From assembly GCA_031081585.1 (NCBI GenBank), contig JAVHLY010000007.1, forward strand, positions 42,626 through 100,322: a DNA stretch of 57,697 nucleotides. The letters run 5' to 3'. The translations under genes were made by a program, and so were the position numbers. The stretch is from Armatimonadota bacterium. GTDB taxonomy: Bacteria > Sysuimicrobiota > Sysuimicrobiia > Sysuimicrobiales > Humicultoraceae. A model generated the notes under the pieces. That model saw nothing but the letters and a program-made list of their open reading frames with translations, had not been told where the DNA came from and did no database searches. Below, piece by piece: positions 7,859-57,697 of the stretch. The stretch's first letter is position 1. Every line of letters begins with the position of its first letter.

Positions 7859-8725
7859 GTGCCCGCTCCCGACCTGCAGCTCCCCACCGGCGAAGCACCG
7901 GCCGCCGCGCGGCGCCGCGTCCGGCGGATCATCGCCCGGCTGGCCGAGCGCTACCCGCAGCCCCGCGTCCCCCTACGCCACCGCAACGCCTTCGAGCTGC
8001 TCGTCGCCACCATCCTCTCCGCCCAGTGCACCGACGCCATGGTCAACCGCGTCACCCCGCAGCTCTTCGCGCGCTTCCGCACGCCGGAAGCCTTCGCGCG
8101 CGCCGACCCGCGGGAGCTGGAGGCGCTCATCCGCCCCACGGGGTTCTTCCGCCAGAAGACGCAGGCCCTCCAGGCCATGAGCCGGGCGCTGCTGGAGCGG
8201 TTCGGCGGCCGCGTCCCCCGCACCATGGAGGAGCTGATCACGCTCCCCGGCGTTGGCCGGAAGACCGCCAACGTCATCCTGGGCGGGTACTACGGCGTCC
8301 CGGGGGTGGTCGTCGATACGCACGTGCGCCGGCTGAGCCAGCGCCTGGGCCTCACCGCCCACGACGACCCCGACGAGATCGAGCAGGACCTCATGCGGCT
8401 GGTGCCGCGGGAGGAGTGGTCGGCCTTCTCGCTGCGGCTGATCTTCTTCGGGCGGGAGGTGTGCACGGCGCGCAACCCCCTGTGCACCGCCTGCCCCCTC
8501 GCCGACCTGTGCCCGTCGGCACCCTACCGCGGCTCGCCGCCCTGGATGCGCCGACGCCGCCGCGGCGCCGGCGCGCCGGCCTCGGCGCGCGCTCCGGCGT
8601 CCCTGTCGAGTCCGGCGGGGCCCGCGCGGACGTCGGCGACGTCGACCGGGACCCGAGCGGCGCCTCGCCCATCGGCCGGGGCGCGTCCTGCCCGCCGGCG
8701 CGCCTCCGGTCCCAGCCGCGGGTAG
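7859..8725 (+). CDS. nth: Endonuclease III (DNA glycosylase/AP lyase)
   Basis: Base-excision-repair enzyme removing oxidised pyrimidines. It has SAQCTD, the helix-hairpin-helix LPGVGRKTANVI with the catalytic Lys, the catalytic Asp in VVDTHVRRLS, and a [4Fe-4S] loop with C-x6-C-x2-C-x5-C spacing (CTARNPLCTACPLADLC). The catalytic core ends near residue 222. The last 65 residues are an Arg/Ala/Pro-rich tail with no counterpart in Nth and lie antisense to the 3' end of mutY. The GTG start follows TAGCAT, a possible -10 box about 10 bp upstream. Confidence 0.93.
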   Translation: MPAPDLQLPTGEAPAAARRRVRRIIARLAERYPQPRVPLRHRNAFELLVATILSAQCTDAMVNRVTPQLFARFRTPEAFARADPRELEALIRPTGFFRQKTQALQAMSRALLERFGGRVPRTMEELITLPGVGRKTANVILGGYYGVPGVVVDTHVRRLSQRLGLTAHDDPDEIEQDLMRLVPREEWSAFSLRLIFFGREVCTARNPLCTACPLADLCPSAPYRGSPPWMRRRRRGAGAPASARAPASLSSPAGPARTSATSTGTRAAPRPSAGARPARRRASGPSRG

Positions 8726-9375
8726 GTGCGGCAGAGGTCGGTGAGGGGGCAGCGGTCGCACCGCGGGCGGCGGGCGGTGCAGATCAGCGCGCCGAAGTCC
8801 ATCAGGGCCTGGTTGTAGTCGTAGGCCCGCCGCGGCAGGAGCCGCTCGGCCAGCGCCCACAGCGCCCGGTCGGGCGCCGGGCGGCCGAAGAAGACGCGCT
8901 GCAGGACGCGGCGGACGTTCGTGTCGAGCAGGGCCGCGCGCCGGCCGAAGGCGAAGGAGAGTAGCGCCCCGGCGGTGTAGGGGCCGACGCCGGGCAGGCG
9001 CAGGAGGCGGGCGCGCTCGGCGGGGAGGCGGCCGCCGTGCTCCGCCAGCACGGTGCGGGCGATCTGCCAGAGCCTCACAGGGCGGGCGTTGTAGCCCAGC
9101 GGGTACCAGACCTCGCGCACCTCGGCGACGTGGGCGCGCGCCAGCGCCTCGAGGGAGGGGTAGCGGCGCAGGAACTCGCGGTACTTCGGTACGACGCGGT
9201 CGACCTGCGTCTGCTGCAGCATGACCTCGGAGACGAGGACGCGGTAGGGGTCGCGCGTGCGGCGCCAGGGGAGGCGCCGGCCGGCGGTGCGGTACCAGCG
9301 CAGCAGGCGGCGGACGAAGCGGCGCCGCCGGGTCGGGGACGGGGGCCGGGGCGGGCGGGAAGGCGATGACGGCAT
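8524..9375 (-). CDS. mutY: A/G-specific adenine glycosylase, short form
   Basis: Removes adenine mispaired with 8-oxoguanine. The motifs are LPWRRTRDPY, SEVMLQQTQV with the catalytic Glu, HhH LPGVGPYTAGAL, LLDTNVRRVL with the catalytic Asp, YNQALMDFGALIC, and a Fe-S loop CTARRPRCDRCPLTDLC with the same spacing as the convergent nth. At 283 residues it lacks the C-terminal NUDIX-like 8-oxoG-recognition domain of long MutY; the final 65 residues are Arg/Ala/Gly-rich. It overlaps nth by 202 bp tail to tail. The start may be slightly downstream, since the first 15 residues are low-complexity. Confidence 0.9.
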   Translation of the reverse strand: MPSSPSRPPRPPSPTRRRRFVRRLLRWYRTAGRRLPWRRTRDPYRVLVSEVMLQQTQVDRVVPKYREFLRRYPSLEALARAHVAEVREVWYPLGYNARPVRLWQIARTVLAEHGGRLPAERARLLRLPGVGPYTAGALLSFAFGRRAALLDTNVRRVLQRVFFGRPAPDRALWALAERLLPRRAYDYNQALMDFGALICTARRPRCDRCPLTDLCRTYPRLGPEARRRAGRAPADGRGAARVPVDVADVRAGPAGLDRDAGARAEAGAPAPRRRRRIQGGEPR

Positions 9376-43243: not shown

Positions 43244-43978
43244 TCACCGCGGTTGCAATTCGAGCACATGACCCTTCGGCATGCCATCCCACGTCCGTCC
43301 ATCGAGGACGCGGCCATTCCGCTTCTTCTGTACGCCGCCCCACTGCTTGAAGAAGAAGGGGACGCCTGCCGCGCGGCACTGTTTCCGAATCTCCCTCACC
43401 CACTTCGCCTCGATAGGTCGCGCGCCGGGTCCGCTCTCCCCGCCGACGATGACCCAGTGGATGCCGGAAAGGTCGAGAGTACCCAAGGGGCCCAGCAACG
43501 GCTCCAGCGACAGGAACCGCACGGCGGCCGGCACCTTCCGAAGGTGATCGGCCCGCCAGAGGTACTTGGCGGTCTCAATCGACACACCCATCCACACGTT
43601 CGGAGGCCAGTTCAGGTCCGGGGCGAGCTCGGCCAGCCTCTCCGACCGCTTGGTGAGGATCTGGAACGTGTGCCACGAGGCCCTCTCCATCGTGCTGAAC
43701 ACTCTCTGGACGAAGTCGAGGGGGACATTCTCGTGGAAGAGATCGCTCATGCTGTTCACGAAGATGGTCCTGGGCTTCTTCCAGGTGAGGGGAAGCTCAA
43801 GGCGATCCGGCCACAGGCGGAGGTCGAAGCCCTGCTCGTAGGGATGACCGGGAACGCCGCGCCAGCGTTCCGCGAAGGTCTCGGCGTAGCAGTGCTTGCA
43901 CCCCGGGCTGACCTTGTTGCAGCCCGTCACGGGGTTCCACGTCGAGTCCGTCCACTCTATCGTGGACTTTTCGCTCAT
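43244..43978 (-). CDS. Three-Cys-motif protein (DUF5131, phage Gp37/Gp68 type)
   Basis: A 244-residue protein beginning STIEWTDSTWNPVTGC. The three cysteines in CNKVSPGCKHCYAE have Fe-S-cluster-like spacing (C-x6-C-x2-C), reminiscent of radical SAM proteins. FVNSMSDLFHE, FQILTKRSERL, VWMGVSIE and WVIVGGESGPGARP are hallmarks of this phage-related family. Its partner TcmP is encoded immediately upstream with an ATGA overlap, the known pairing. The reaction is unknown. It is the last gene of the accessory operon. Confidence 0.88.
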   Translation of the reverse strand: MSEKSTIEWTDSTWNPVTGCNKVSPGCKHCYAETFAERWRGVPGHPYEQGFDLRLWPDRLELPLTWKKPRTIFVNSMSDLFHENVPLDFVQRVFSTMERASWHTFQILTKRSERLAELAPDLNWPPNVWMGVSIETAKYLWRADHLRKVPAAVRFLSLEPLLGPLGTLDLSGIHWVIVGGESGPGARPIEAKWVREIRKQCRAAGVPFFFKQWGGVQKKRNGRVLDGRTWDGMPKGHVLELQPR

Positions 43979-45096
43979 CTCTCCCCTCCTTCCTTCGGGG
44001 GGAGAAAGCGCACGCGGTCCTTCTTCTGCAGACCACGATCCGTCTTGGAACTGACCGGCGTGATCTCGACGAGGCCCTCCTCCTTCAGCTGCTTCACGAC
44101 AGAGCGATAATGCTTCTCGATGAAGGGCAGGTCCCAACTCTCCTCGCGGATCTGATCAAACTCGACCTGCTTCCCGGCGTACTCCCTCAGGAGCGCCTGT
44201 CGCAGTTCTTCTTCGCGCGGGGAACTTGAAAAGAGCATACCGTGCTTCTCGCCGCTGAAATCGAACAGACCTTCCTCGTCCCCGAGCGGCCACATCACCT
44301 CCTTCATGAGCAAGGCCGCCTTCGAGTGGTTGGATGCGTGGATGAGGTAGTACTTCGTGCGGCTCTGGGCCATTTCATCTTCGACGTCGAACCGGATGCG
44401 AAACGGCAGCTTGTAGCGCGCGTTGACCTTGGACATGAAGTACTCAAGGAAGCCCTGCTCCCGCTTCCACCCGCTCTCCCTCAAGAACGGCTGCGTCCGC
44501 CATTCGTCATTACCGAACATTTCGTCGAGGTGGTGCTGCACCTTCGCGTTACCGGCGTCCATGTTGATCCGGTAGAACATGAAGTTGATCAGCGCCTCCG
44601 TCTGCGGGCGTTTCAGGATGTCGTTCAGGATCGGGACCGTCAGCGGGTGCCCATACGGGTCCACCATGAAGAACGACGGTGCGAGCTTCGGGACTTGCCC
44701 AAGGAGCTTCGGCACGAACTCCTTGACGTCCTCCGCCATCACATGCACCTGCACTCCCTGTCCGTAGGGCTGCACGCCTTTCAGCTCGGCATCGAGCGAC
44801 GCTCTTTGCTTCTCGTCCTTCTCGACAAGGATCACGGTCATTTGGTGACCTTTCGCCTTGGCGAGATACTCCTGCGCCGCACGCACCGCGATGATGGGCG
44901 AGCCGTCAACCTTCTGCCCCTCGAACTCGTAGGCGCCGGGACCCGCGTAGCAATCGAAGTAACAGAGCCGACGGTTTCGGGAGCCCAGGATGTGTTCCCA
45001 CGAGGGCAGATACTTCTGCAGGATGATGTGCTTGATCCGCGAGACCTGCTTGAGGTGTTGCGGACCGTCATCATCCTGAATTGCGTCTGCGGCCAT
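43975..45096 (-). CDS. tcmP: Three-Cys-motif partner protein TcmP
   Basis: A 373-residue protein with a methyltransferase-like N-terminus: KHIILQKYLPSWEHIL, YFDCYAGPGAYEFEG (SAM-binding-like loop) and FFMVDPYGHPLTVPIL (DPPY-like). The C-terminal part has a winged-helix look (HYRSVVKQLKEEGLVEITPV). TcmP proteins are defined by their association with three-Cys-motif genes such as the one that follows. ATG 45096 follows GAGGAGG; upstream residues are not conserved-looking. It may modify a nucleic acid, but that is inference. Confidence 0.87.
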   Translation of the reverse strand: MAADAIQDDDGPQHLKQVSRIKHIILQKYLPSWEHILGSRNRRLCYFDCYAGPGAYEFEGQKVDGSPIIAVRAAQEYLAKAKGHQMTVILVEKDEKQRASLDAELKGVQPYGQGVQVHVMAEDVKEFVPKLLGQVPKLAPSFFMVDPYGHPLTVPILNDILKRPQTEALINFMFYRINMDAGNAKVQHHLDEMFGNDEWRTQPFLRESGWKREQGFLEYFMSKVNARYKLPFRIRFDVEDEMAQSRTKYYLIHASNHSKAALLMKEVMWPLGDEEGLFDFSGEKHGMLFSSSPREEELRQALLREYAGKQVEFDQIREESWDLPFIEKHYRSVVKQLKEEGLVEITPVSSKTDRGLQKKDRVRFLPPKEGGER

Positions 45097-45178
45097 TCCG
45101 GCCTCCTCTACTGAAAGGCCCCTTACACGCGGAACCGGGGGACACCCTACTTCCATCGGCAATCCTCGCCCCGACACA

Positions 45179-47947
45179 TCAGGCGTCGCGGATCTGCACC
45201 TTGTCTGCGAGCCCCAGGTCATCCAGGATCTGACGGAGGTCCGCCGTCAGGCTCCCCGCCACGTCGCGGTTGACCGTAACGGAGAAGTCCACGCCGACCT
45301 TGAGATCGGAGCCGGACCGGAGCTTCGGCAGGACCTTCGTCCCCAGTCGATTCCACACCTCGGGTGGGACAGCACCCACGAGGCGGATGGTCTTCGTCTG
45401 GACTCCAGGGGCAGGCCCCGGGCCGGGCTCGGGTTCGGGACCAGGTCCGGGACCCGGCACCGGAGGACCCGGCTGCGGTTCCGGCCCCGGAGCAGGCACT
45501 GGACCACCTGCCTTGAGCGCCTGCGCCTTGGCCTTGGTCAGCAAGAAAACACCCGAGTCGAACGCGACCTCGTCCGCAGTAACGGGCTCCTGGAACCAGA
45601 TACGCTCGTAAGTGCCGTCGGGCCTCTGTCCCGAAGCGAGACCGAAGTCGCCCCTTCCGACGAACTCGACGATCTTCCCCCGCAAGGTCATGTCGGGATC
45701 GAGCAGCCGCGTGAGCGAGCCGTTCAGGAAACTCTGCCGCAGGCTGGCGAGCGGCCACGCGCCGGACTCCTTCAGCGCAGGCGGCCAGTTCCGATCGATG
45801 TAGCCCGCACCGACGGACTCGTTGAGCAACGCCGCCGACTTGAGCGCGGCGATGACCCTGCCGCACAGAGTTTCGCCGCTGCTGGAGTGCCCAGCCCCCA
45901 GGTCGATGGTCTTGAGCCCGTCGGCCTCCTGGTGGTCGGCGATCACGGCGAAGCGATAGCCACCCCAGACCTCGTCCTTGGCGGCGTCCTCTGCGGCGGC
46001 GACCTTCGACTGGAGATCGGCGCGATCCGTCCGGTCGAAGTCTCCACCCAGCGTACCGTCGGCCACTTCACGGGCCACCCGCTGCCAGGCGAGCCACAGC
46101 TCAACCTTCTCGCGCAGGTCCCGGCCCGGCTTCTTGATGCACCACACGAGCGACCCCGGGTAGAGGCGCGGGGATCTGCCCCGTTGCTTCGTCCATTCAG
46201 CGATTTGCTCCCGCAGCGAACCACTGCCCGTCCACTCGGCCTCCGGCTCGGTTATCACGAGCGTTAGCCTTGGAGAGTCCGGGACCTCCGCGCCGTCCCG
46301 TGGGAAGAGCACGACGGGAATGCTGGCTCCCCGGCGGAACTCGTCCTCGACGAGCTTGCGAATTGCCGGCTTGATCTCGGTCTCGTCGTCCAAAGACGCT
46401 CGGCGGTCACTGACCACCTTCTTCATCGTGGGTTGGTGGCTGATCTTGAACCCGTCCGAGCCCACCTTGCGGATGAAGTAGGACTTGTCCTCCAGCGCGA
46501 AGGCGGCGTTGTCCACCGAGGTCGTGTCCACCTCCGGCTCGCCGAGGGCGAACCGCAGTTCCGGCAGGTGCGCGACCTTGTCTGTCTGGCCCCCCGACGA
46601 CTCGAAGAGGATCGCCGTTCCCACCCGGCGGTGGATGTCGCGGAGCGGGCCTTTTGTGTCCGCGTCCAGCGCCTTCGCGTGGGCCTGCTCGCCGGCGATG
46701 TCCGCGTCGATGGCCGCGACGAGCCGGGACTCCCCGAGCTGGCCGAGGATGACGCTGCGGAAGCCGGGATCGAAGAGCGGAGCCGACCCGAGCGTGATGA
46801 GGGGCTCCGTGCGGGCTTTGCGGAAGCTCTCCTGGGATGCGATGGCGATCCACTGGGCCAGCATCGCCAGCGTCCCACGCGTCTGCTGGTACTGCGAGAG
46901 GGCCTGCCACTTCCGCTGGAAGACCGAGAGCGTGGCCGGATGGAAGGGGTAGCAGGCCTCGAATCGGCGAAGGAGGAATTCCCGCGCCTTCGCCTCCGTC
47001 GCCGCCGTGTCCACGGCCGTCCACTCCGGCGGAAGCTGCGCCCGCCGTTCGAAGCACCAGTCGGCGAAGGCCTTCGCCACGTTCTTCCTGGTGCGCTCGC
47101 TTCCCAGGTCCTCGAAGAGACGCCGCCGGACGACTTCGCTGATCTCGGTCTCGTCGTTGGCGATGAGGTCCTTGGCGACACGCCGGACGACCTTGGTGAT
47201 CTTGTCCTGCCACTGCATGTCCCAGTCGGTCATTTCGACCTGGCTGCGCGGGAGGCTGATCACGGCCGCGCCGTGCGTCGTCCCCGTGGTGGCGACCGTC
47301 AGGTTCTGGATGAAGGCGTGGAACGACTCCGCCATGCCGCGATGCCGATTGAGGAAGTTGAGGACCTCGTCGAAGAGGAGGAGCACCGGCGCGCCCGCCG
47401 CCTGGAAGACGCGGGCGATGGACTCCGTCCCGGGCGGGGTCGTCTTCGCGGCCGTCCCGAGCACCTCGACGCCCTTGTCGCCCGCCAGCTGGCGGGCGAT
47501 GTCGATCCATGGGGTCTCCCGGCCATCCTGGGGGTCCCAGGCGTTCCCCACGAACACGCCCACACGCGCCTTGGGGACAGACGAGAGGCCAGCGTCCCGG
47601 AGCAGGTCGGAAACCCCCGAGTACCCGGCTGCCTTCTCGCCGCTCGTGCCAAGGTGGTAGAGGGCCGTCAGCGTGTGCGTCTTGCCGCCGCCGAACTGGG
47701 TGATCAGGGTCAGAACCGGAGCGGTGTTGTCGGTCTTGCCCGAGAGCCTTCGGAGCACCAAGCCGGCGTGCTCGCGGAGCGCCCTGGTGAAGCAGGTGCG
47801 GGAGAAGAACTGCTTGGGGTCGCGGTAGTCCTCCGGGGCCGTCTTCGCCACGACCTGCTCGAGGGCGATGGCGAACTCGTCCGGGTTGAAAGACCGTCCT
47901 TCCCGGACCTCCTTGCGCGGCGTGGCTACCCTGTACCAAGGTTCCAT
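45179..47947 (-). CDS. DUF499 AAA+ ATPase, defence-associated
   Basis: A 922-residue P-loop ATPase. It opens WYRVATPRKEVREGRSFNPDEFAIAL, has Walker A TQFGGGKTHTL near residue 85 and Walker B VLLLFDEVLNF near residue 188, then a long helical region. A Pro/Gly-rich spacer of about 30 residues (PAPGPEPQPGPPVPGPG) joins a small C-terminal domain (IRLVGAVPPEVWNRLGTKVLPKL). DUF499 proteins recur beside DUF1156 methylases and helicases in predicted anti-phage operons and resemble BrxC/PglY-like ATPases in role. It lies 10 bp after the nuclease gene. Confidence 0.9.
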   Translation of the reverse strand: MEPWYRVATPRKEVREGRSFNPDEFAIALEQVVAKTAPEDYRDPKQFFSRTCFTRALREHAGLVLRRLSGKTDNTAPVLTLITQFGGGKTHTLTALYHLGTSGEKAAGYSGVSDLLRDAGLSSVPKARVGVFVGNAWDPQDGRETPWIDIARQLAGDKGVEVLGTAAKTTPPGTESIARVFQAAGAPVLLLFDEVLNFLNRHRGMAESFHAFIQNLTVATTGTTHGAAVISLPRSQVEMTDWDMQWQDKITKVVRRVAKDLIANDETEISEVVRRRLFEDLGSERTRKNVAKAFADWCFERRAQLPPEWTAVDTAATEAKAREFLLRRFEACYPFHPATLSVFQRKWQALSQYQQTRGTLAMLAQWIAIASQESFRKARTEPLITLGSAPLFDPGFRSVILGQLGESRLVAAIDADIAGEQAHAKALDADTKGPLRDIHRRVGTAILFESSGGQTDKVAHLPELRFALGEPEVDTTSVDNAAFALEDKSYFIRKVGSDGFKISHQPTMKKVVSDRRASLDDETEIKPAIRKLVEDEFRRGASIPVVLFPRDGAEVPDSPRLTLVITEPEAEWTGSGSLREQIAEWTKQRGRSPRLYPGSLVWCIKKPGRDLREKVELWLAWQRVAREVADGTLGGDFDRTDRADLQSKVAAAEDAAKDEVWGGYRFAVIADHQEADGLKTIDLGAGHSSSGETLCGRVIAALKSAALLNESVGAGYIDRNWPPALKESGAWPLASLRQSFLNGSLTRLLDPDMTLRGKIVEFVGRGDFGLASGQRPDGTYERIWFQEPVTADEVAFDSGVFLLTKAKAQALKAGGPVPAPGPEPQPGPPVPGPGPGPEPEPGPGPAPGVQTKTIRLVGAVPPEVWNRLGTKVLPKLRSGSDLKVGVDFSVTVNRDVAGSLTADLRQILDDLGLADKVQIRDA

Positions 47948-47957
47948 GACGGTCCTC

Positions 47958-48953
47958 CTACGGTCTCTTCATGCGCGCGAACAGCTCGGTCGCGGACTTC
48001 TTCAGCCGTCCGAGGTTCGCGTATGCTATCGGCTCGAACGCGCTCTGGCAGGAATACATGCGGTAGCGGATGCCGTCGGTCACGACCACGTCCCGGGGTG
48101 TACCGAGCGCTTCCACGTAGCCCTTCGCTTGCTCCAGCGCTCCTTCGACGCCCGCCCCGAGGCGCTTCGCCTCGATCACGAGGTGGCAGTTCTCCGGGGT
48201 CCGCGGGAGAGCCCGGAACAACGCCACGTCGATGTAGCCCCTGCCTGCCGGCAGGCAGGGCCACTTGACGGCGATGCGTTCCGGCGGCCAGCCCAGCGCG
48301 CCCAAGAACGGAACCACGAAGTGGGCGATCAGTTCGTCCTCGCTCGGGTGCTCGCCGAACGCCTGCCGATCCCACAGGAGCGGGACGAGGTCGTTGGCCG
48401 CCGCCACGAGCCCCTGGAGGGCTGCAGGCACATCCTCCAGAGGCGGTTCCTCCGCCGGGAGATCCGGCAACGCGACCGTTTGCCAGTGCGTCGGCGGCGA
48501 ATTGAGGAAACGATCCGCGTAATCCGTCACCTCGTCGTTCCACGTCCGCGAGCAACGCGTCGGGTTGGCCCCGAACACCGGGGTCGTGAACGTGTGCTCC
48601 TGCGGGAGCTTGCACCAGCGCACGCGGCGGGCGTGCTGGAGGTCCCACCCGTTCACGTCGTCGAACTGGTTGAGATACAGGTAGTCGCTGGCCACGATCC
48701 CGACCGCGCAAATCCTCGAGATCCCCGTGCGTAGCAGGAAGACGTCGCCGATCTGGACCTCGCTGGCGAAGCGACGCACGAAGCCGCCCTCGAACTCGTC
48801 GTCGTCGCGTTCCGGCTTCCAAGGGCCCGCGTCTCCCGGACCGATGAGGCCGACGCCGTACTTCAAGAAGACGTCCGCATACGGCCGGGACGCCTGCCCA
48901 GCCGCCAGCTGCCAAATTCCCCTTGTGGTCGTCTTCTCGTTCATCGCCATCAT
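47958..48953 (-). CDS. EVE-like / PD-(D/E)XK nuclease fusion
   Basis: A 331-residue protein. The N-terminal part (residues about 8-150: GIWQLAAGQASRPYADVF, VQIGDVFLLRTG, ICAVGIVASDYLYL, RRVRWCKLP) has the look of EVE/PUA-like readers that bind modified bases. The C-terminal part resembles the HsdR_N nuclease: Asp242 in YIDVALF, Glu261-x-Lys263 in LVIEAKRLG and Gln275 in EQAKGY. Together these suggest a modification-sensing restriction nuclease, paired with the methylase just upstream (ATGA overlap). A perfect palindrome is inserted just before Asp242 and adds PCLPAGRG. Confidence 0.75.
   Translation of the reverse strand: MMAMNEKTTTRGIWQLAAGQASRPYADVFLKYGVGLIGPGDAGPWKPERDDDEFEGGFVRRFASEVQIGDVFLLRTGISRICAVGIVASDYLYLNQFDDVNGWDLQHARRVRWCKLPQEHTFTTPVFGANPTRCSRTWNDEVTDYADRFLNSPPTHWQTVALPDLPAEEPPLEDVPAALQGLVAAANDLVPLLWDRQAFGEHPSEDELIAHFVVPFLGALGWPPERIAVKWPCLPAGRGYIDVALFRALPRTPENCHLVIEAKRLGAGVEGALEQAKGYVEALGTPRDVVVTDGIRYRMYSCQSAFEPIAYANLGRLKKSATELFARMKRP
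48239..48260. repeat. Perfect 22-bp palindrome inside the nuclease gene
   Basis: Core CTGCCTGCCGGCAGGCAG, extended to 22 bp. It is read in frame as CLPAGR within the nuclease domain. A related inverted repeat with the same CTGCCTGC arm occurs at 55981-56017 in another gene of the operon, suggesting a dispersed REP-like element. Confidence 0.75.
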
Positions 48954-51892
48954 CTCGGGACCGCCAGGAGCATCGCGTCCAGCAGGCGCTTCTCCTCGCT
49001 GCTCTTCGGGTACAGGGCAGAGAGCGCGTTGGAGAGGCGGAGGAAGTCCGGCCCTCGCTCTTGCTCTGCCTTCAGCAAGGCGCGCAGGGCGTTAGCCCGA
49101 CCGCCGGCCTGAAGCAGCATGGCCATGTGAACGCGATCGAGTGTCGTCGCTTCGCGGCTGGTCTCCAAGGCCTCGTCGGGTACGTCCGCGCCTGCCTTTC
49201 TACGCCCGCGACCGCGTCCCTTGCCTTTCGCCTCTTCCTCGTTCTCCGAGAAGAGCATCAGTTGATGGATGTCCTCGGGAGGGGCTTTCTCCAGCCTCTG
49301 GGCGACAGCATCGGCACCATCTTTCCCGAAGAGGATTCTGGCGCGCTCCGCTACCGACAACAGCCGAACGACCCCCTTCTTCGTCTCGATGATCCGGCCT
49401 TCCCACTTGGGCAGGTTGATGCCCAGGGGCTGAGCGAATCGACGCACAACGTCGAAGACGAGCGTGTAGCCCTTAGCCTTCCCCTGGGAGGTCTCCTCTT
49501 CTTCGTCCTCCTCGGTGGAGACTTCCTCCTCGTCGATCTCCTCAGGTCCAGCTCCCGCAGATCCCCCGTTGGTGCTTTGGAGCGTCCAGAGGAAAAGCGC
49601 CGTCAGTCGCGCATCTTCCTCGACAGCTCCCGCAGCGCCATTCCGGGCCTTTGCCTCAGCGGTGCCGAGCACCTGCTCCAGGGCAGCACGTCCGACGACT
49701 TCCCACACCTTCTCCAGGTATTCGGCGAGCTTGACCTCCCGGCCATCGGCGGTCTCGACCTTGCGGTAGCGGCTGAAGATCTCCAGTGCGGGGCCTATGC
49801 AGGCGAAGACGAGATCCGCGCCGCGGATGCCTTCGGCCTGCAGCCGCTCCATCCAGTCTCCGACGCGCTTGGGCAGTTCCCGCAGGACCTCACCCCAGTC
49901 ACCGACCTTCGCGTTGTCCGGCCGCGGGCGACAGACTAGGTGCACGCTCGTCTCCAGTGCGGCGTAGCCCTGTCCGCGCATGCGCTGCTTTCTTTCCGTG
50001 GCTATCGGCCAAGAGCCGGTCGTTCGCCAGCCGGCATCCACAAGTGCTGAGACCAGCGCCTCCCAGCGGTCCGTCTCCTTGTGAGCGAAAACGACCGACC
50101 CGACGCCGTCTTCCCGGATGGTTCGTTTCATCTGGCCGAAGGCTTCTTTCATCCGGCTTTCGTACCAGTCCCGGTCATGGACGCCGCCGTCGCTGACGGC
50201 GCGGTTCTCCGTCAGCTCTCGCGCCTTTTCCGTCTCAACCGCCGAGAATGCCTGCGGCAGGCGGCCACGCAACCCGAGCCGGAGCCATCCGTAGAAGAAG
50301 TCGGACAGGTGGGCGTAGGGAATCTGATTCGCATACGGCGGATCGGTAAAGATCACGTCCACCGACTCCTCCGGCAGGACTGGATCAAGAGCGTTTGCGA
50401 GAAGCGGTGACGAGGGCTGATAGCGCGTCGAGGCCAGTTGCCGAAGGGCGCTGCGAACGCTTCGGACCGAGTAGCCCAGCCCTTCGCAGTTCGGGCTCAA
50501 CGGATTCCCTTCCACGAAGTCGGCACGCATCGGCACACCGGAACCCTGTATGAAGACCGATGTTACGCCCTCCGAAAGCCAGACGCAGAGCGAGGTGTGA
50601 TACTGGGCGTTGTCGGAGTAGGCCGTGTAGAGGCATGCCGCCAGGGCGATGAGCAGGTCCTTGTCCTTGACCCGTTGTCCCGCCTCCTTGAGCGCATCTT
50701 CGATGACCTCGTGGATGACCCAGCGGGAGAAGCGCTGGCGCGGGGCGAGGACATCCGCCCAGTTCGTGATCCCGAATGGCCGCGGGCGGAACCCGGTATC
50801 GCCCTCGGGAGGTGCAGGCGGCATCTCAATGTGAACCTCATTCGCCCTGCTCCGGGCCTCCTCATACGCAGCCAAATCGGCCTTTGCCGGCGTGTAGTAA
50901 TCCTTCCCTCGACCAGTCGAATTCTGTCTGACCACTGCCAGCAGGATGGCGTCTTCCGCTCCTCCACGCCTCTCTCGAAGCTGCGCTTGGACGCGCATGC
51001 GGCCCGTGACCATGTGACATTTCGGACAGGTCGCGTTATTGCCCGCGACCGTTCCGCGTTCGACCTCCTTATCGCTGGCCGGTTCGAACACCTCGATCCG
51101 AGGTTCGAGCGAGCCATTCGGATACAGGATGCGCAAGGCCTTCTTCCGGCCTTTGGCCTGGGATAGCCACAGGTTGCGGACCAGCGGAATCGTCGCGCCA
51201 CAGCCAGCAGCCTCGCACCTCACCACCCGCGCCCAAAGGTAGGCGAGGGGTTTGCGCTTCTGTGCGTCGGCCGGGTAGTACTCTTGCAGACGCAGCTCTA
51301 TCTGCTTCAGAACCCACTCCGACCATTCCTCGAACAGGTCGGCGAGTTCCGGCCCCTTGCGCCCGCACCACTCGAGCGCGATCTTGAGTTGGAGCCATGC
51401 GACCGGGTTGAGTTCCGATGCCGTCACCTCGCAGCCAAGGCGCAGCCCTTCGAGAGGAATTGAGCCGCCGCCAGAGAATGGATCGAAGAGGTGCGGCGTC
51501 GTGCCATGCGCCGCCTGGATCAGCTTCCGGGCTGTCGAGACGTAGCCTCCCTTGTTCACGAGGTTCCATTCAGCGAGTTCCGCTACGAACGTCAGTAGGG
51601 CGCGCAGCAGATCGAGGTCGGAAGGCCCCACCTTTCGGAATTGCTGGAGCTCCTTCCTGGCAACCGCCTTGAACGACTCCGGGCAGTGCGAATCGGTAGG
51701 ATCGGGTAACAAGAGGGTCAGCAGAAGCGCACGGCAAGAAGCGAGGGGGCGCCGGGCCCACCAACTATGCAGGAGCGAGATGTGGCCGCTGTCCACGCGG
51801 GTCTTGATGTTGTTCTCCCGAACGCACGCATCGTTGACCGCCGACAGGGCGAAGTCGATCTCGGCCAGACGCCGGCACTCTTTCAGAATCAT
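48950..51892 (-). CDS. DUF1156 adenine-specific-type DNA methyltransferase
   Basis: A 980-residue methylase of the COG1743 type. The N-terminal DUF1156 shows SLLHSWWARRPLASCRALLL; SAM motif I is FDPFSGGGSIPLEGLRLG; the catalytic motif is TDPPYANQIPYAHLSDFFYGWL. A zinc-ribbon-like CEAAGC plus CPKCH lies between. A very acidic patch (EEIDEEEVSTEEDEEEE) precedes the C-terminal domain. Such enzymes modify host DNA in BREX-like or other DUF499-linked systems. ATG 51892 overlaps the upstream stop; ATG 51913 lies inside that gene. Confidence 0.92.
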   Translation of the reverse strand: MILKECRRLAEIDFALSAVNDACVRENNIKTRVDSGHISLLHSWWARRPLASCRALLLTLLLPDPTDSHCPESFKAVARKELQQFRKVGPSDLDLLRALLTFVAELAEWNLVNKGGYVSTARKLIQAAHGTTPHLFDPFSGGGSIPLEGLRLGCEVTASELNPVAWLQLKIALEWCGRKGPELADLFEEWSEWVLKQIELRLQEYYPADAQKRKPLAYLWARVVRCEAAGCGATIPLVRNLWLSQAKGRKKALRILYPNGSLEPRIEVFEPASDKEVERGTVAGNNATCPKCHMVTGRMRVQAQLRERRGGAEDAILLAVVRQNSTGRGKDYYTPAKADLAAYEEARSRANEVHIEMPPAPPEGDTGFRPRPFGITNWADVLAPRQRFSRWVIHEVIEDALKEAGQRVKDKDLLIALAACLYTAYSDNAQYHTSLCVWLSEGVTSVFIQGSGVPMRADFVEGNPLSPNCEGLGYSVRSVRSALRQLASTRYQPSSPLLANALDPVLPEESVDVIFTDPPYANQIPYAHLSDFFYGWLRLGLRGRLPQAFSAVETEKARELTENRAVSDGGVHDRDWYESRMKEAFGQMKRTIREDGVGSVVFAHKETDRWEALVSALVDAGWRTTGSWPIATERKQRMRGQGYAALETSVHLVCRPRPDNAKVGDWGEVLRELPKRVGDWMERLQAEGIRGADLVFACIGPALEIFSRYRKVETADGREVKLAEYLEKVWEVVGRAALEQVLGTAEAKARNGAAGAVEEDARLTALFLWTLQSTNGGSAGAGPEEIDEEEVSTEEDEEEETSQGKAKGYTLVFDVVRRFAQPLGINLPKWEGRIIETKKGVVRLLSVAERARILFGKDGADAVAQRLEKAPPEDIHQLMLFSENEEEAKGKGRGRGRRKAGADVPDEALETSREATTLDRVHMAMLLQAGGRANALRALLKAEQERGPDFLRLSNALSALYPKSSEEKRLLDAMLLAVPR

Positions 51893-53118
51893 GACCGCCT
51901 CGGCTCCTTCCAAAGCCGAACCGTGAGGCGGCTCTCCTCGGGGATAAACTCGGGTTCGGTTCCGTTGTGGGCGCGCATGCCCGGGATGATCTTCTCGCGC
52001 ACTCCCATTCCTCGGAAATCCACGTAGCGGTAGTCGCGCATCACGTTGACCAGCGTCTGGTTCCGCGCGTAGCGCATGCCCGCCTTCATCCCTTCTAGGG
52101 TGACCGTGTTCGGCAACCTGCCCGGGCTCTGGATCTCGAGCCGATCCGAATAGACGGCGAGCGTGATGTCCGAGCCCGCCACGCTGTAGTCTCGGTGGAC
52201 GAGGGCGTTTACGACCGCTTCCCGGAGAACCGCAGGGGGGTAGGCAGGCCGATCAACCCTCTGCCCGCCCTCGAGGTGAGCAGTCGGCTCCGTGTTCCGG
52301 TTCACGAAGTCCAGCGCCTGTTCGACGAGGCCCGATTCGGTGATGGAACCATCAGCGGCGCAGAGAGGCACCAAGGGTCCCTTCAACTGTTCGTCCGCGC
52401 GGGTGGCGTAATCCGGCGTCGCGCCGGGATAGCACAATGCACGAATCCCCGACTGCGGCAGAAATCGCTTGGGCGTCCTCCCGAAGAGCAGCATGCCGTC
52501 AATGCTAGGCACAGCCTGGCCTGCGGACACGGTCATGAGATCCAGATTGCGCAGAAGCCTCTCCCACTCCTCGACGGCTGCTTCGGCGGGGACGCTTCCC
52601 CCGAGGACGCGGGCGAAGTAATCGCGGAGCCGCCGGTCGTCGAGATCTTCCAGCGTGGCACCGGGTACGGGCTTCAGACCATACTGGACTCGCCCGGACG
52701 CCTGGAACATGCGCTCGAGCTCTTCGCGGCTGGCCTCGCGGCTTGTACTCCCCACGCGGATGAAATAGGTGCGGCGGTTGTTGTGAACCCGTCCGTAGGG
52801 TTTGTCCGGGCCTTGGGAGACGCGAACGATCAGGACGTCTTTTCCAGGCTCAACCGCACGCACCCAGGAGAGGTGCGGCACGATGGGAGGCTCGATCTTC
52901 ACTCGGCAGAGCTCCGCGACCCATTCCTCGAGGTTGGGTCTCGAGGTCCCCGACACGGTGCCATCGTCCTCGATCCCGAGAAGGACGATCCCGCCCTCCA
53001 GATTCAGGAAGGCCACGAGTTCCTTGGCGAGCTCGTGGTTCTCAACGTCGTCGCGCTTGAACTCGACGCCGGAGTTCTCGCCGTTTTTCAGAAGTTCCAA
53101 GAGTTCGGTCTTCGTCAT
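51889..53118 (-). CDS. AlbA_2 domain ATP-binding protein (Schlafen-like), second copy
   Basis: A 409-residue protein. The AlbA_2 domain at the N-terminus shows ENSGVEFKRDDVENHELAKELVAFLN and GGIVLLGIEDDGTVSG; the C-terminal part has an HATPase_c_4-like fold (PPAVLREAVVNALVHRDYS, SDRLEIQSPGRLPN, RYARNQTLVNVMRDY). Annotated relatives are called putative transcriptional regulators or RecG-like proteins; several act in phage defence. It overlaps the methylase start by ATGA and sits 11 bp after the PHP-ATPase gene. Confidence 0.9.
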   Translation of the reverse strand: MTKTELLELLKNGENSGVEFKRDDVENHELAKELVAFLNLEGGIVLLGIEDDGTVSGTSRPNLEEWVAELCRVKIEPPIVPHLSWVRAVEPGKDVLIVRVSQGPDKPYGRVHNNRRTYFIRVGSTSREASREELERMFQASGRVQYGLKPVPGATLEDLDDRRLRDYFARVLGGSVPAEAAVEEWERLLRNLDLMTVSAGQAVPSIDGMLLFGRTPKRFLPQSGIRALCYPGATPDYATRADEQLKGPLVPLCAADGSITESGLVEQALDFVNRNTEPTAHLEGGQRVDRPAYPPAVLREAVVNALVHRDYSVAGSDITLAVYSDRLEIQSPGRLPNTVTLEGMKAGMRYARNQTLVNVMRDYRYVDFRGMGVREKIIPGMRAHNGTEPEFIPEESRLTVRLWKEPRRS

Positions 53119-53129
53119 CGTGTCCCTTC

Positions 53130-55829
53130 CTAGAAGCCGTACTTCAGGCGCCGCATCTCGAATGCTTCCCGTCCACCTTCCAGGACCTCCTCGACAAGCT
53201 CTCTGACGGGGCGGGCGTCGATAGACCCCATGTGCTCCTTCGGCATCCGCGCCCTGCCTTCCTGCCCGGCCTCACCGGAGGCGGTCAATCCGACGATGAG
53301 TTCGGCGTCCCCGAGCACGGGTATGTTCGCGTTGTGCGTCGCAAAAACGAACTGCCTGCGCCGTTTCTCCTCGCGCATCTTCGGCACGATACCCTCTGTG
53401 ATGAACCTGTTGTCCAGATCGTCCTCCGGTTGGTCCACCACGAGAGGGGCATCGGACTCGAGAAGCAGTAGGAGAAGAACGGCCGTCGCCTTTTGGCCCG
53501 TCGAGAGACCCTCGAGCTTCTGCCACCGAGCAGGTTGGCCTTCGCCTGCCACGTTCAACTCGATCTGGGTCGTGGGGGCCAAATCCAGCTCCTCGAGTTC
53601 CATGACCACTTCCGAGGGTGCCTGCGCGAGCCGGTCTGCTTGCGCTGGAGGCATCTTGTACCTTTGGGCGAGTGCGTCCCTTCCCGATCTCCAGGCGTCG
53701 GAGAGTTCCTTCAGGGAGAGGCTTTCGGCCTGCCGGAGCGCATCAAGCGCTTCTGAAAGTCGACCACCGACGCGCTCCTTGAGGAGTTGAAAAAGAGGCT
53801 CGCGATTTCCGGCAAAGGTCACCTGGACACGCACGCGTTCGGCGAGTTGCTTGCTGACCTTCTTCGCGGCGCGCTCGAGTTGCCGGAACTCCTCGGCCTT
53901 CACGTCTTCCCATTCTGCGAGCAGACTCCGGCGACGGTCTTCGTGCTCCTTCCTGGTTCGCTGGAGAATGGCCTGGCGCTCCCGAAGCGGCCGAAGCTCC
54001 TCGATCTGGCGCCTCAGACGAATGAACTCCTCTCCGTCGATCTTCGATTTCTGCAGCTCACGGAGGATCTTCTCGTAGGCCGCCTGAACTTCCTTCTTGC
54101 GTACTTCCCACTTCTTCTTCACGTCGGCCAGGCCGCGGTCGGCGACCTCGAGGGCCTCTTGCATCTGCCTGGCTACCGCTTCAAGTTCGCGGTTGAGCCG
54201 GGAGAGCACGGTCTCGATCTCTGCCAGGATCTCCTTGCCCGGCAGACCGTCGAGGGCCTTCTGCGAGACGAACACGCGGTCGACTGGCAATGCGCGTCGC
54301 AGATCCTCAAGCACCTGTCGGTACGGCGCAAGACGACCGCCGGCCGTCTTGAGAACCTGCTCCTCCCGCACCAGGAGGCTCTGTTCTTTGAGTCGCTCTT
54401 CCAGGCCCGCATCCTGGAATCGCTTCAGGGTTTCTTCGAGAGCCGGGAGCGCAGCCAGGCGCTCTTCGACTTGCAGAAGCTCTCTGTCCGAGTCGAGGAT
54501 CTTCGCTCGAGACTGCTCGAGCTGCCTCCTGACGTCGGCCTTGCGCTGAGCGAGTGCCGCATCCCGCTCCACGAAACGTTCGAGCAAGCGCGTGCGCTTC
54601 TCCGGGCTCTTCGCCAGCTCGGATATTTCATGCTGTCCGAACACTTCGACCTGCGGGACAATGGTCGCGGGAGTCAGATTCAGAATCTCGCCGTTCTGGA
54701 CTCGGATCACCGGTGGATTGGGAATGGTCCGCTCGATGCGATACTCCTGCTTGTTGGGTCGGTGAGAACGGACAAGCAGGGAGATCTTGGTGCCGTTCCT
54801 CAGGACGTTCCGCACGATGCCCTCGTGTGCCTTCCGGGCATCTTCGCCGAGCGGTTCCAGTCCAAGGACGTACCGCAGGCTCTCAATCACCGTGGACTTG
54901 CCGGTTCCTCGTCCGCCCACGAGCACATTCAGATTCTCGTTGAAGTGAATCGCGGCACCATCGAGGAACCCACCTTCCCAGGCGATGGTGACGAATTCGG
55001 CATGGTCTTCGGGAGAAGGAGCGCTGTTCAAGCGAATCCTTGAGCCCGGATCGAGAAAGGCCTGCCGGAGGCCCTCAACACCCACCTCGGACATCTTGAT
55101 CCAGCAGGTGGCGGAGGGGTCATCCAGGTCCCCGGGTGCCGCGACATCACGAGCGTTCACTACCGCGACGGCGAGCCCGTTGCCTGATACGTGCGGGCGA
55201 CGGTAATCGGGGTTCTTGTTCTCGACGATGACGCGGACGTCCTGGGGCAGGTCGTCAACGGGCCCCGGAATCTGAACGGCAAGCAGGTTGTCGTCCTTCC
55301 AGGCGCGGATTCTCGCCTGTCCGCTCAGCACTCTAAACAGACCGCCGTCGTTCGTTACGTGCGCCGCGATGGTCACTCCACCCTGCTCCCGGACGCAGCG
55401 GAGGATGTCCGTGAAGGTCTTGGTCGACGGCTGCGAGGACTGGTCCGTATTGCGAATGCCGAACTCCCCCAGGTAGCGCCCAAGGCGATCCTCGTCGGTG
55501 TCCGGGGGATAGATGCACAGCACATGAACCCCTTCGCTGCTCGAGAGCTCAAACCCGGGAAGCACGTGGATGTCACGGTCTTGAGCGGCCTCCCGGATGA
55601 GCGCGACGCCGCTCACGTGGTTGTGATCCGTTACAGCCAGCACGGAGACGCCCAACGCCGCAGCCTTGTCCACGACCTGGCGGGCATAGGTTTCGGCGTT
55701 CCCTTGGGCGGCCTTGCCGCGATAGGTCGTCGAATAGTGGTGGGGATTGATCTGGAGCGCGCACTTATAGAAGCGAGCCCCGCCGGGCAGCTTGAGAGCG
55801 TTCAGGAGAGGATCGGCTTTCGGCGTCAT
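53130..55829 (-). CDS. PHP-domain SMC-like ATPase (TrlF-like)
   Basis: An 899-residue protein. The N-terminal PHP-type phosphoesterase domain has INPHHYS, VTDHNHVSG and PGFELSSSEGVHVL (residues about 25-120). An ABC/SMC ATPase follows with Walker A GGRGTGKST near residue 330, long coiled coil (about 430-700), signature-like LSTGQKATAVLLLLL and Walker B LVVDQPEDDLDN, then ATHNANIPV. This pairing of a nuclease-like domain and an SMC motor matches AAA proteins called TrlF. It would sense or cut DNA ends or tRNA; the precise target is unknown. ATG 55829 overlaps the DUF3883 remnant stop. Confidence 0.88.
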   Translation of the reverse strand: MTPKADPLLNALKLPGGARFYKCALQINPHHYSTTYRGKAAQGNAETYARQVVDKAAALGVSVLAVTDHNHVSGVALIREAAQDRDIHVLPGFELSSSEGVHVLCIYPPDTDEDRLGRYLGEFGIRNTDQSSQPSTKTFTDILRCVREQGGVTIAAHVTNDGGLFRVLSGQARIRAWKDDNLLAVQIPGPVDDLPQDVRVIVENKNPDYRRPHVSGNGLAVAVVNARDVAAPGDLDDPSATCWIKMSEVGVEGLRQAFLDPGSRIRLNSAPSPEDHAEFVTIAWEGGFLDGAAIHFNENLNVLVGGRGTGKSTVIESLRYVLGLEPLGEDARKAHEGIVRNVLRNGTKISLLVRSHRPNKQEYRIERTIPNPPVIRVQNGEILNLTPATIVPQVEVFGQHEISELAKSPEKRTRLLERFVERDAALAQRKADVRRQLEQSRAKILDSDRELLQVEERLAALPALEETLKRFQDAGLEERLKEQSLLVREEQVLKTAGGRLAPYRQVLEDLRRALPVDRVFVSQKALDGLPGKEILAEIETVLSRLNRELEAVARQMQEALEVADRGLADVKKKWEVRKKEVQAAYEKILRELQKSKIDGEEFIRLRRQIEELRPLRERQAILQRTRKEHEDRRRSLLAEWEDVKAEEFRQLERAAKKVSKQLAERVRVQVTFAGNREPLFQLLKERVGGRLSEALDALRQAESLSLKELSDAWRSGRDALAQRYKMPPAQADRLAQAPSEVVMELEELDLAPTTQIELNVAGEGQPARWQKLEGLSTGQKATAVLLLLLLESDAPLVVDQPEDDLDNRFITEGIVPKMREEKRRRQFVFATHNANIPVLGDAELIVGLTASGEAGQEGRARMPKEHMGSIDARPVRELVEEVLEGGREAFEMRRLKYGF

Positions 55830-55835
55830 CGATGA

Positions 55836-55942
55836 CCTCCATAACCCGGGCTCTCCTCCCGCACCTGCATCGGCTTCGTCAGGGCATCCAGCGACAGGTA
55901 GTAATGCGCCACCTTGGTCGCCTCGTGCCAGTCGAGGCGGGC
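55836..55942 (-). repeat. Direct repeat copy A (DUF3883 gene tail)
   Basis: 107 bp aligning without gaps to 57590-57696; by hand, 13 differences, with an identical run of about 36 bp (covering DALTKPMQVREE). The pair brackets the Schlafen-like gene. Confidence 0.85.
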
Positions 55943-55980
55943 GGGGTGTTTGATCGGTTCTTGGAGCTGCGGGCTGGTGG

Positions 55981-56017
55981 TGCCTGCCTGCGCCGCGCCC
56001 GTTGCGGCAGGCAGGCA
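55981..56017. repeat. Imperfect inverted repeat related to the 48.2 kb palindrome
   Basis: Arms 55981-55991 (TGCCTGCCTGC) and 56007-56017 with a 15-nt GC-rich loop, read in frame within the DUF3883 remnant. It shares the CTGCCTGC/GCAGGCAG arms with 48239-48260. Confidence 0.65.
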
Positions 56018-56040
56018 GTTCGTGACCACATACAGCCAGT

Positions 56041-56110
56041 AGCAATTGCGCGCTGCCGTGCGATTATTTGCACGCGAGCGATTCGCAATTGCACGCGAGC
56101 AATTATTTGC
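56041..56110. repeat. AT-richer microrepeat block
   Basis: TGCACGCGAGC occurs at 56069 and 56090 (21-bp period), with ATTATTTGC at 56063 and 56102 and GCAATTGC twice. The block encodes the Arg/Ala/Asn-rich start of the DUF3883 remnant and looks like short tandem expansion with internal palindromes at the junction between two genes. Confidence 0.6.
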
Positions 56111-57583
56111 TCGGAATTCCATATCGGGTTCCTTTCGTCGAGCCGGCAATTCGCTGGATCTTCCCCAGCCTTTCGAGCCTCTTCAACAGCCGATAAGCCT
56201 GCATAGGATTCAGTCGGCAAAGTTCGGCTACCTCGCCCCGGTCAATGGAGCCGTGCTTGTGCACGAACTGCAAGACCATTTGCTCCTGCTGGATCGGTTC
56301 GAAGCCGCGTTGACGGACGTAGGCCGCCCGCTCGCCCAGCCGGCGATAGGTCGCGGCCGAGAGGTGCCACGTCCGACCCTTTCTCTCCCCGCGAGACTCA
56401 ACCAGACCGCCTCCACCAGCCGCTGGAGGAAGCTACGAGCCTCGGCTTGCGCTTTCTGAATGAGAGCGCCGGCCTTATCCGTCGTCAGGCAGCGCTCGAT
56501 CCACAGGTAGTTCAACAGCAGCAACTCATCGAGCCCCAGTGTGCGCCCTGCCTGACTTTCCTCGGCCACCATCCGGGCAAACTCGAGGTTGGCCTCGCCT
56601 CCAGGAAGGACGAGCACGACTCCGGTCTCGTTGCTGCGGGCATAGCTGGGGGCCGGGCGGCCGTTGCGCAGCTGCTCGAAGTAGATGGTGTCGATGCCCC
56701 GTGCCGTGCGCTCGACGATGCCGGCGCGCTTGAAGGCGTCGGCGAGCAGCGGATTGCGGGGCCGCGGTTGCGTGACCAGCAGGTTGTCGAGCCGCACGCC
56801 CTCGGGGAACCCGCCTGGGTTGCCGATCTCGATGCGGTCCTCGTGCCACTGCACATGAACGGCGCCGAGCCGGGTGTAGTCCCGGTGAATCAGAGCGTTG
56901 GCCAGGCCTTCGCGGAACACCGCCGGCGGGTAGTCGGGCACCGCAATGCGCAGCATCCCAACCAGCACTTCCTCCTCGCGATTGCGGGCGCGGAAGCGGG
57001 CCAGCAGCTCGTCAACGACGCGCAGCAACGGCCAGCGGAAAAAGTCGTTGACCTGGACCTGCTGCCCCGAGAGCACCTGGAACGCCACCTCGTGTGTCGG
57101 GAGCAGCCGGCGCAAAGCCTCTTCCCGTCCGAACAGCAGCAGGCCGAGCACCCGCACCGCGGACAGGTCGTGGCTGGCCTGGACGGCGCCGAGCGCCTTC
57201 GCCAGTTCGATGTCCGGCAAGTCTACGAGACCGGCGTCACCGCGCCCCTGGCTCTCGCGAACAAAACGGCGGAAACGGTCGAACTCTAGTGGGTCGAGAT
57301 CGTCCCACCGAGCGCCCCGGACCACGAGCCCCGAGTAGTCCAGCACGCCTCGGTCCGCCTGGAGCGCTTGCATCTCGTGAAAATGGAACGGAACGCAAGC
57401 GGGGCGGCCGTCGCCCCCGACGCCGATGAGGAGCCACGCCGGTGTATCGCCCGAGCGATTGGCCAGGCACACCACCGCCTCGACGAGCTCGCCGTCCGAA
57501 AGTGATTGCCGCTCTTCGCCCTTGAACTCCACCAGCAGCGTCTCACCCGCGCCGATGAGGCTCCTCAGATCCTCAAGGGTCAC
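56103..57583 (-). CDS. AlbA_2/Schlafen-like protein with winged helix, frameshifted near its 3' end
   Basis: An AlbA_2 domain (GETLLVEFKGEERQSLSDGE, then WLLIGVGGDGR), an HATPase-like region (PPAVFREGLANALIHRDYT, EDRIEIGNPGGFPEGVRLDN) and a Glu/Leu-rich helical part. As read, the frame turns to Ser/Arg-rich noise after LQRLVEA and ends at 56228. In the adjacent frame the sequence continues VESRGERKGRTWHLSAATY and FVHKHGSIDRGEVAELCRLN, a winged helix, ending GTRYGIPSK at 56103. One extra G (CC at 56407-56408 on the plus strand) restores it. The GTG start overlaps the DUF3883 gene stop. It is a paralogue of the gene at 51889. Confidence 0.82.
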
Positions 57584-57696
57584 GACGGTCCTCCATAAGG
57601 CGGGGACTCCTCCCGCACCTGCATCGGCTTCGTCAGGGCATCGACCGACAGGTAGTAGTGCGCGACCTTTGTAACCTCGTGCCATTCGAAGCGGGC
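57580..57696 (-). CDS. C-terminal end of a DUF3883 protein, truncated by the window
   Basis: The last 38 residues (ARFEWHEVTKVAHYYLSVDA, then LTKPMQVREESPPYGGPS) of a protein whose body lies beyond the window edge. DUF3883 usually closes large helicases or ATPases in defence operons, so the missing helicase of this system may be just outside. The tail overlaps the Schlafen-like gene start (GTGA). Confidence 0.75.
   Translation of the reverse strand, partial: ARFEWHEVTKVAHYYLSVDALTKPMQVREESPPYGGPS
57590..57696 (-). repeat. Direct repeat copy B (DUF3883 gene tail)
   Basis: Partner of 55836-55942. This copy is the tail of a longer gene running off the window, so it is probably the original and copy A the duplicate. 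Confidence 0.85.
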
Positions 57697-57697
57697 T

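Follow-up and report, generated by a model that had tools for sequence, protein, structure and literature searches.

The window, by which we mean the whole 57,697-nucleotide stretch analysed here, contains an anti-phage operon of the Hma (helicase-methylase-ATPase) type, a DUF499-centred system that was named by PADLOC (PMC8565338) and has been grouped with BREX-related systems, auxiliary HEPN, PIN, Schlafen, and TOPRIM effectors having already been catalogued for such operons (PMC12839542). The order is tail B, SLF2, tail A, TrlF, SLF1, HmaB, S331, and HmaC (Table 1), tails A and B being the two copies of a repeat discussed below. The likeness to Hma lies in HmaB and HmaC, which match the PADLOC models, and in the helicase end, which matches HmaA-type DUF3883 helicases. 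The PHP domain of TrlF is under the Pfam cut-off (22.7 vs 26.4), and membership of the family was found with NCBIfam NF045780. A search for TrlF found 41 loci, in nearly all of which, whatever the operon, TrlF is directly followed by an SLF1-like Schlafen protein (positions 51889-55829 in the window; L004-L044); the two genes seem to form a stable module. Beside HmaC, at 43244-45222, a TcmP-like protein and a DUF5131 protein match the PADLOC candidate pairs PDC-M30/PDC-M41.

Table 1. Features of the Hma-type operon in the window, in operon order.
Feature	Position	Strand	Remarks
Copy B (tail B), 3' end of an HmaA-like DUF3883 helicase gene	57580..57697	-	Cut by contig end
SLF2, Schlafen-like gene (AlbA_2 + HATPase_c_4 + wHTH), decayed	56103..57583	-	62% identical to intact G010 homologue behind HmaA
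AT-rich short-palindrome array at SLF2 3' end (GAGCAAATAATTGCTCGCG...)	56056..56114	-	Homologous to array in L011; join to tail A comes after array
Copy A (tail A), detached HmaA 3' end (from YWLYVV), about 225 bp	55826..56050	-	TrlF ribosome-binding site (RBS) and overlapping start lie within it
TrlF family PHP-domain/AAA ATPase, first cargo gene behind tail A	53130..55829	-	NF045780 534 bits, cut-off 350
SLF1, intact Schlafen-like AlbA_2/HATPase_c_4 protein	51889..53118	-	Regular TrlF partner
HmaB, DUF1156 DNA methyltransferase, core gene	48950..51913	-	PADLOC HmaB 293 bits; Pfam DUF1156
S331, cargo gene, second slot (HmaB-HmaC)	47958..48953	-	Partial homologue in same slot of L177
HmaC, DUF499 ATPase, core gene	45179..47947	-	PADLOC HmaC 315 bits; Pfam DUF499

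A direct repeat at 55836-55942 and 57590-57696, given in a preliminary description of this DNA as ungapped at about 88%, was confirmed by alignment and by blastn (87.85% over 107 bp, E=8e-33). The repeated sequence corresponds to the 3' terminus of a gene for a DUF3883-type helicase, the HmaA of the Hma system. Copy B has ...EESPPYGGPS* as its last residues, with its TGA overlapping the GTG with which SLF2 starts (GTGA); copy A correspondingly finishes in ...EESPGYGGHR*, its TGA overlapping the ATG of TrlF (ATGA), and in both copies the start is closely preceded by GGAGG. Copy A is homologous to the helicase C-terminus over more than the 107 bp, as far as about 56050 (YWLYVV...), and a palindromic insert lies inside it at about 55981-56014. 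The window ends where its contig ends (100,322 bp) and copy B touches the last base, so the repeat may be longer than 107 bp. Of an HmaA-type helicase, the contig holds the last 37 codons only, and when the rest of the assembly was searched the helicase body was absent; because it is missing there, that copy B is the end of a full helicase gene is something we infer. In G010, the homologous protein contains helicase domains as well as NOV_C, the DUF3883-like domain. Thirty-seven codons are too few for the phylogeny of tail B to be resolvable. Copy B is 85-87% identical over 75-89 bp to attached tails of other phyla; the 88% between copies A and B is barely above this, and a recent duplication in situ is therefore not needed, nor is it proven by identity alone.

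Judged from its sequence against the G010 homologue, SLF2 is damaged. It is without about residues 60-128 (~69 residues, AlbA_2), no complete AlbA_2 domain being found (E=0.03, 46/118 positions), and a 1-nt frameshift near 56400-56430 breaks the end of the winged helix. The open frame from the GTG stops at 56228; given the frameshift, the true reading end is 56103. The frameshift could be a sequencing error, which is less likely for the 69-residue gap. The array straight after the SLF2 stop is 77% identical over 73 bp between the window and L011 (9712-9800), and an array alike in style follows SLF2 in L197; folding is weak in the window and L011 (z -1.3 and -1.4) and stronger in L197 (z -3.3). 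The array was rejected as a genome-wide repeat, there being two sites only, both at this locus, and viral matches to it were rejected as chance. There were no relatives of SLF2 in the viral collection, and Rfam gave nothing above threshold over the region.

Both window junctions occur separately in relatives. A full DUF3883 helicase gene abuts the TrlF start in L004, L005, and L039, and the alignment of tail A-TrlF with L005 crosses the junction at 76% over 223 bp; among 392 genomes of the phylum of G044, the search for TrlF yielded nothing beyond three loci already known. In the window's own family, G010 (locus L053) lacks TrlF and carries, in this order, HmaA, the GTGA overlap, an intact SLF2 homologue, a sigma-like gene, HmaB, and HmaC. 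As both junctions exist apart elsewhere, the window joins two layouts at one new point, where the 3' end of SLF2 meets a site within an HmaA end. The order in L197 is HmaA (N-terminal part), SLF2 (C-terminal part), an HmaB head, an HmaA end, other cargo, and HmaB, and detached tails stand ahead of TrlF or other cargo in L007, L043, L173, and L197.

HmaA ends were searched for in four further phyla, and 48 loci were examined. With an HmaA-end profile, and also with tblastn, detached copies were found in L007, L173, L186, L188, L189, L196 (two), L197, L206 (two), and the window; fainter copies in L011 and L043 were recognised chiefly by eye. Leftover core-gene ends thus lie among the accessory genes of about ten to a dozen Hma operons from several phyla, and they are in every case ends that face an accessory slot. 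When whole core proteins were used in tblastn, the detached HmaA pieces, simple one-gene decay aside, all came from the last ~100 codons; detached HmaB heads were found in L043, L092 (twice), L173 (twice), and L183, and HmaB ends in L004 and L177, no interior HmaB piece being among the fragments. The sole detached HmaC piece is a head, in L177. An HmaB head is joined straight to an HmaA end in L043, L173, and L197. Most detached tails overlap or abut the start of the next gene, but coupling is not universal, because in L196 a gap of about 50 nt separates each of the two tails from the following start codon. The tails begin at varying HmaA codons, roughly 1060 to 1132, and no recombination site upstream of them is shared by all; plasmids contained no close HmaA ends.

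The slots between core genes hold TrlF-SLF1, Schlafen-like, MNT/HEPN-like, DUF1016/YhcG nuclease, Fic, ORF6N, UvrD, HerA-like, and AAA/OLD-like genes; of these names, MNT/HEPN and OLD were assigned by eye. Related Fic-family genes lie beside HmaA tails in two phyla (L188 and L206). The HmaB-HmaC slot of L177 (8992-14712) contains the HmaB end three times over, together with an HmaC head that runs into an HmaB end and part of an S331-like gene. A cargo protein of ~390 aa (MSMxSFLPWCRIDKAYDV...) is found in Hma slots of two phyla (L173, oriented, 8110-9309; L197:3845-5023); the L197 copy had no Pfam match when scanned, and the protein is a candidate new effector.

Several pairs of loci show a core-gene end and its cargo moving together. 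Between L189 and L196, the tail and its Schlafen-like cargo are 93.9% identical over 1387 bp, starting within the tail, whereas the helicases share 73.8% identity; the unit stands apart from the helicase end in L196. L173 and L197, though from different phyla, match at 80.7% over 2.27 kb, from the tail onward through the cargo and the HmaB head. The HmaB-HmaC slots of L004 and L177 hold the same two units of HmaB end and AAA cargo in reversed order. The loci L092 and L093, both chromosome-level records, share 97% identity from HmaA through cargo 1 to HmaB codon ~198; past that codon, L092 continues with new cargo, then a second head of HmaB, then a third cargo, and lastly a full HmaB at 89/86% to L093. 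The new block in L092 was joined downstream through one illegitimate join backed by homology. It is for this pair of relatives, and not for the window itself, that the combination of a homologous side and an illegitimate join is shown.

With a probability of roughly 0.72, we read the repeat as a scar left where two Hma-type operons that carried different accessory cargo were joined. The layouts joined would be an HmaA helicase gene with SLF2 and an HmaA end followed by TrlF, SLF1, HmaB, S331, and HmaC. The preliminary description had instead an ancestral HmaA-TrlF operon gaining a Schlafen-like cassette that brought or duplicated the HmaA end, a history that we think rather unlikely. The direct junction of the DUF3883 gene to the PHP-ATPase gene that it predicted is indeed present in the three relatives noted above, which constitute empty sites; its arrangement is topologically possible, copies A and B are the most similar pair, and tail A-TrlF does align with L005 across the junction. 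However, a genome of the same family (G010) has HmaA-SLF2 without TrlF, and in L197 an HmaB head and a passenger tail come after SLF2, in that order. The palindromic insert of tail A, moreover, is common to the detached tails of L173 and L197 and occurs in no attached tail aligned, which suggests that tail A is itself a passenger; a TrlF block that brought a passenger tail with it is no less probable as the newcomer than SLF2 is as the insertion. What endures from the earlier proposal is that modules travel with the end of the preceding gene: the overlapping starts were seen at both junctions, and independent cases back the arrival of modules in this form. That the Schlafen-like gene was the insert and that the tail was freshly duplicated from the local gene are either unsupported or not decidable, and the Schlafen-like module, with its gap and frameshift, is not intact.

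Decay of two complete tandem operons, tail A being the remainder of a second full helicase gene, is improbable; the head-to-end joins of L043, L173, and L197 are also expected from deletion between tandem operons, and HmaA genes are decaying in L095, L192, and L197, but two full-length DUF3883 genes in tandem, named beforehand as the arrangement that would speak for decay, were seen in none of the loci examined, and the fragments retain the slot-facing end, never an interior piece. Duplication of the HmaA end in tandem in situ, with cargo then inserted or diverging, is largely refuted: the cargo between the repeats is of another family than the cargo after them, neither L043b nor L011b is closer to the HmaA end of its own operon than to others, and the L196 tail matches the tail and cargo of another genome at 94%, even though direct repeats in slot 2 of L004, at 98%, look recent. 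Least probable is a chimeric contig assembled at a conserved tail. The position of the window at a metagenome contig end, with copy B reaching the last base, would fit such an artefact, but the join comes after SLF2, within the contig and outside the repeat itself, the order of SLF2 and then a tail recurs in L197 and L011, and the same kind of join is found in L092/L093. Metagenome assemblies supply most of the loci, and some of the joins may be chimeras, though the latter pair is chromosome-level and similar joins recur.

In this reading, the HmaA-HmaB and HmaB-HmaC gaps of Hma operons are places where effector genes can be exchanged. The end of the preceding core gene contains the RBS of the cargo and, at most joins, its overlapping start, so that the cargo would be moved and kept together with that end as a unit. 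New cargo would enter through recombination in which one side is anchored by a shared core gene and the other is an illegitimate join; truncated heads and ends of core genes would then be left between one cargo and the next. Homology-anchored, one-end-illegitimate recombination is the likely mechanism on our analysis; we infer both the recombination pathway and selection for tail retention through translational coupling. There is nearly an even chance that core-gene ends are general docking sites by which BREX-related anti-phage operons gather and trade effector genes, effectors traveling with the end that supplies their translation start, and that fossil ends record the order of acquisition.

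The recurring pattern is of more interest than the details of a single repeat. It suggests how anti-phage operons may gather interchangeable weapons, gaining effectors without losing expression; detached core-gene ends would then be a readable record of cargo gain, and orphan ends a simple search handle for new adjacent anti-phage effectors. It also carries a warning: an accessory gene of such an operon can be a decayed remnant, as SLF2 is here. In the open-licence literature we found no earlier paper that describes scars of this kind, made of core-gene ends, for anti-phage operons, and PMC12839542 mentions neither remnants, fragments, or truncated core genes nor TrlF/PHP.

Among known systems, integron gene cassettes are similar in that modules are added serially into a fixed slot; they differ in that Hma tails have neither a shared recombination site nor constant boundaries, the detached tails starting at different codons. 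The T6SS effector-immunity arrays and Rhs orphan 3' ends, for which homology-facilitated illegitimate recombination has been proposed, are also alike: a conserved stretch anchors, the far end is joined illegitimately, and older modules and gene 3' ends are displaced downstream (PMC5361080). The variable part there, however, is a toxin gene (or C-terminus) with its immunity gene, whereas in Hma the core gene stays whole, and it is separate effector genes that follow its end in an anti-phage operon.
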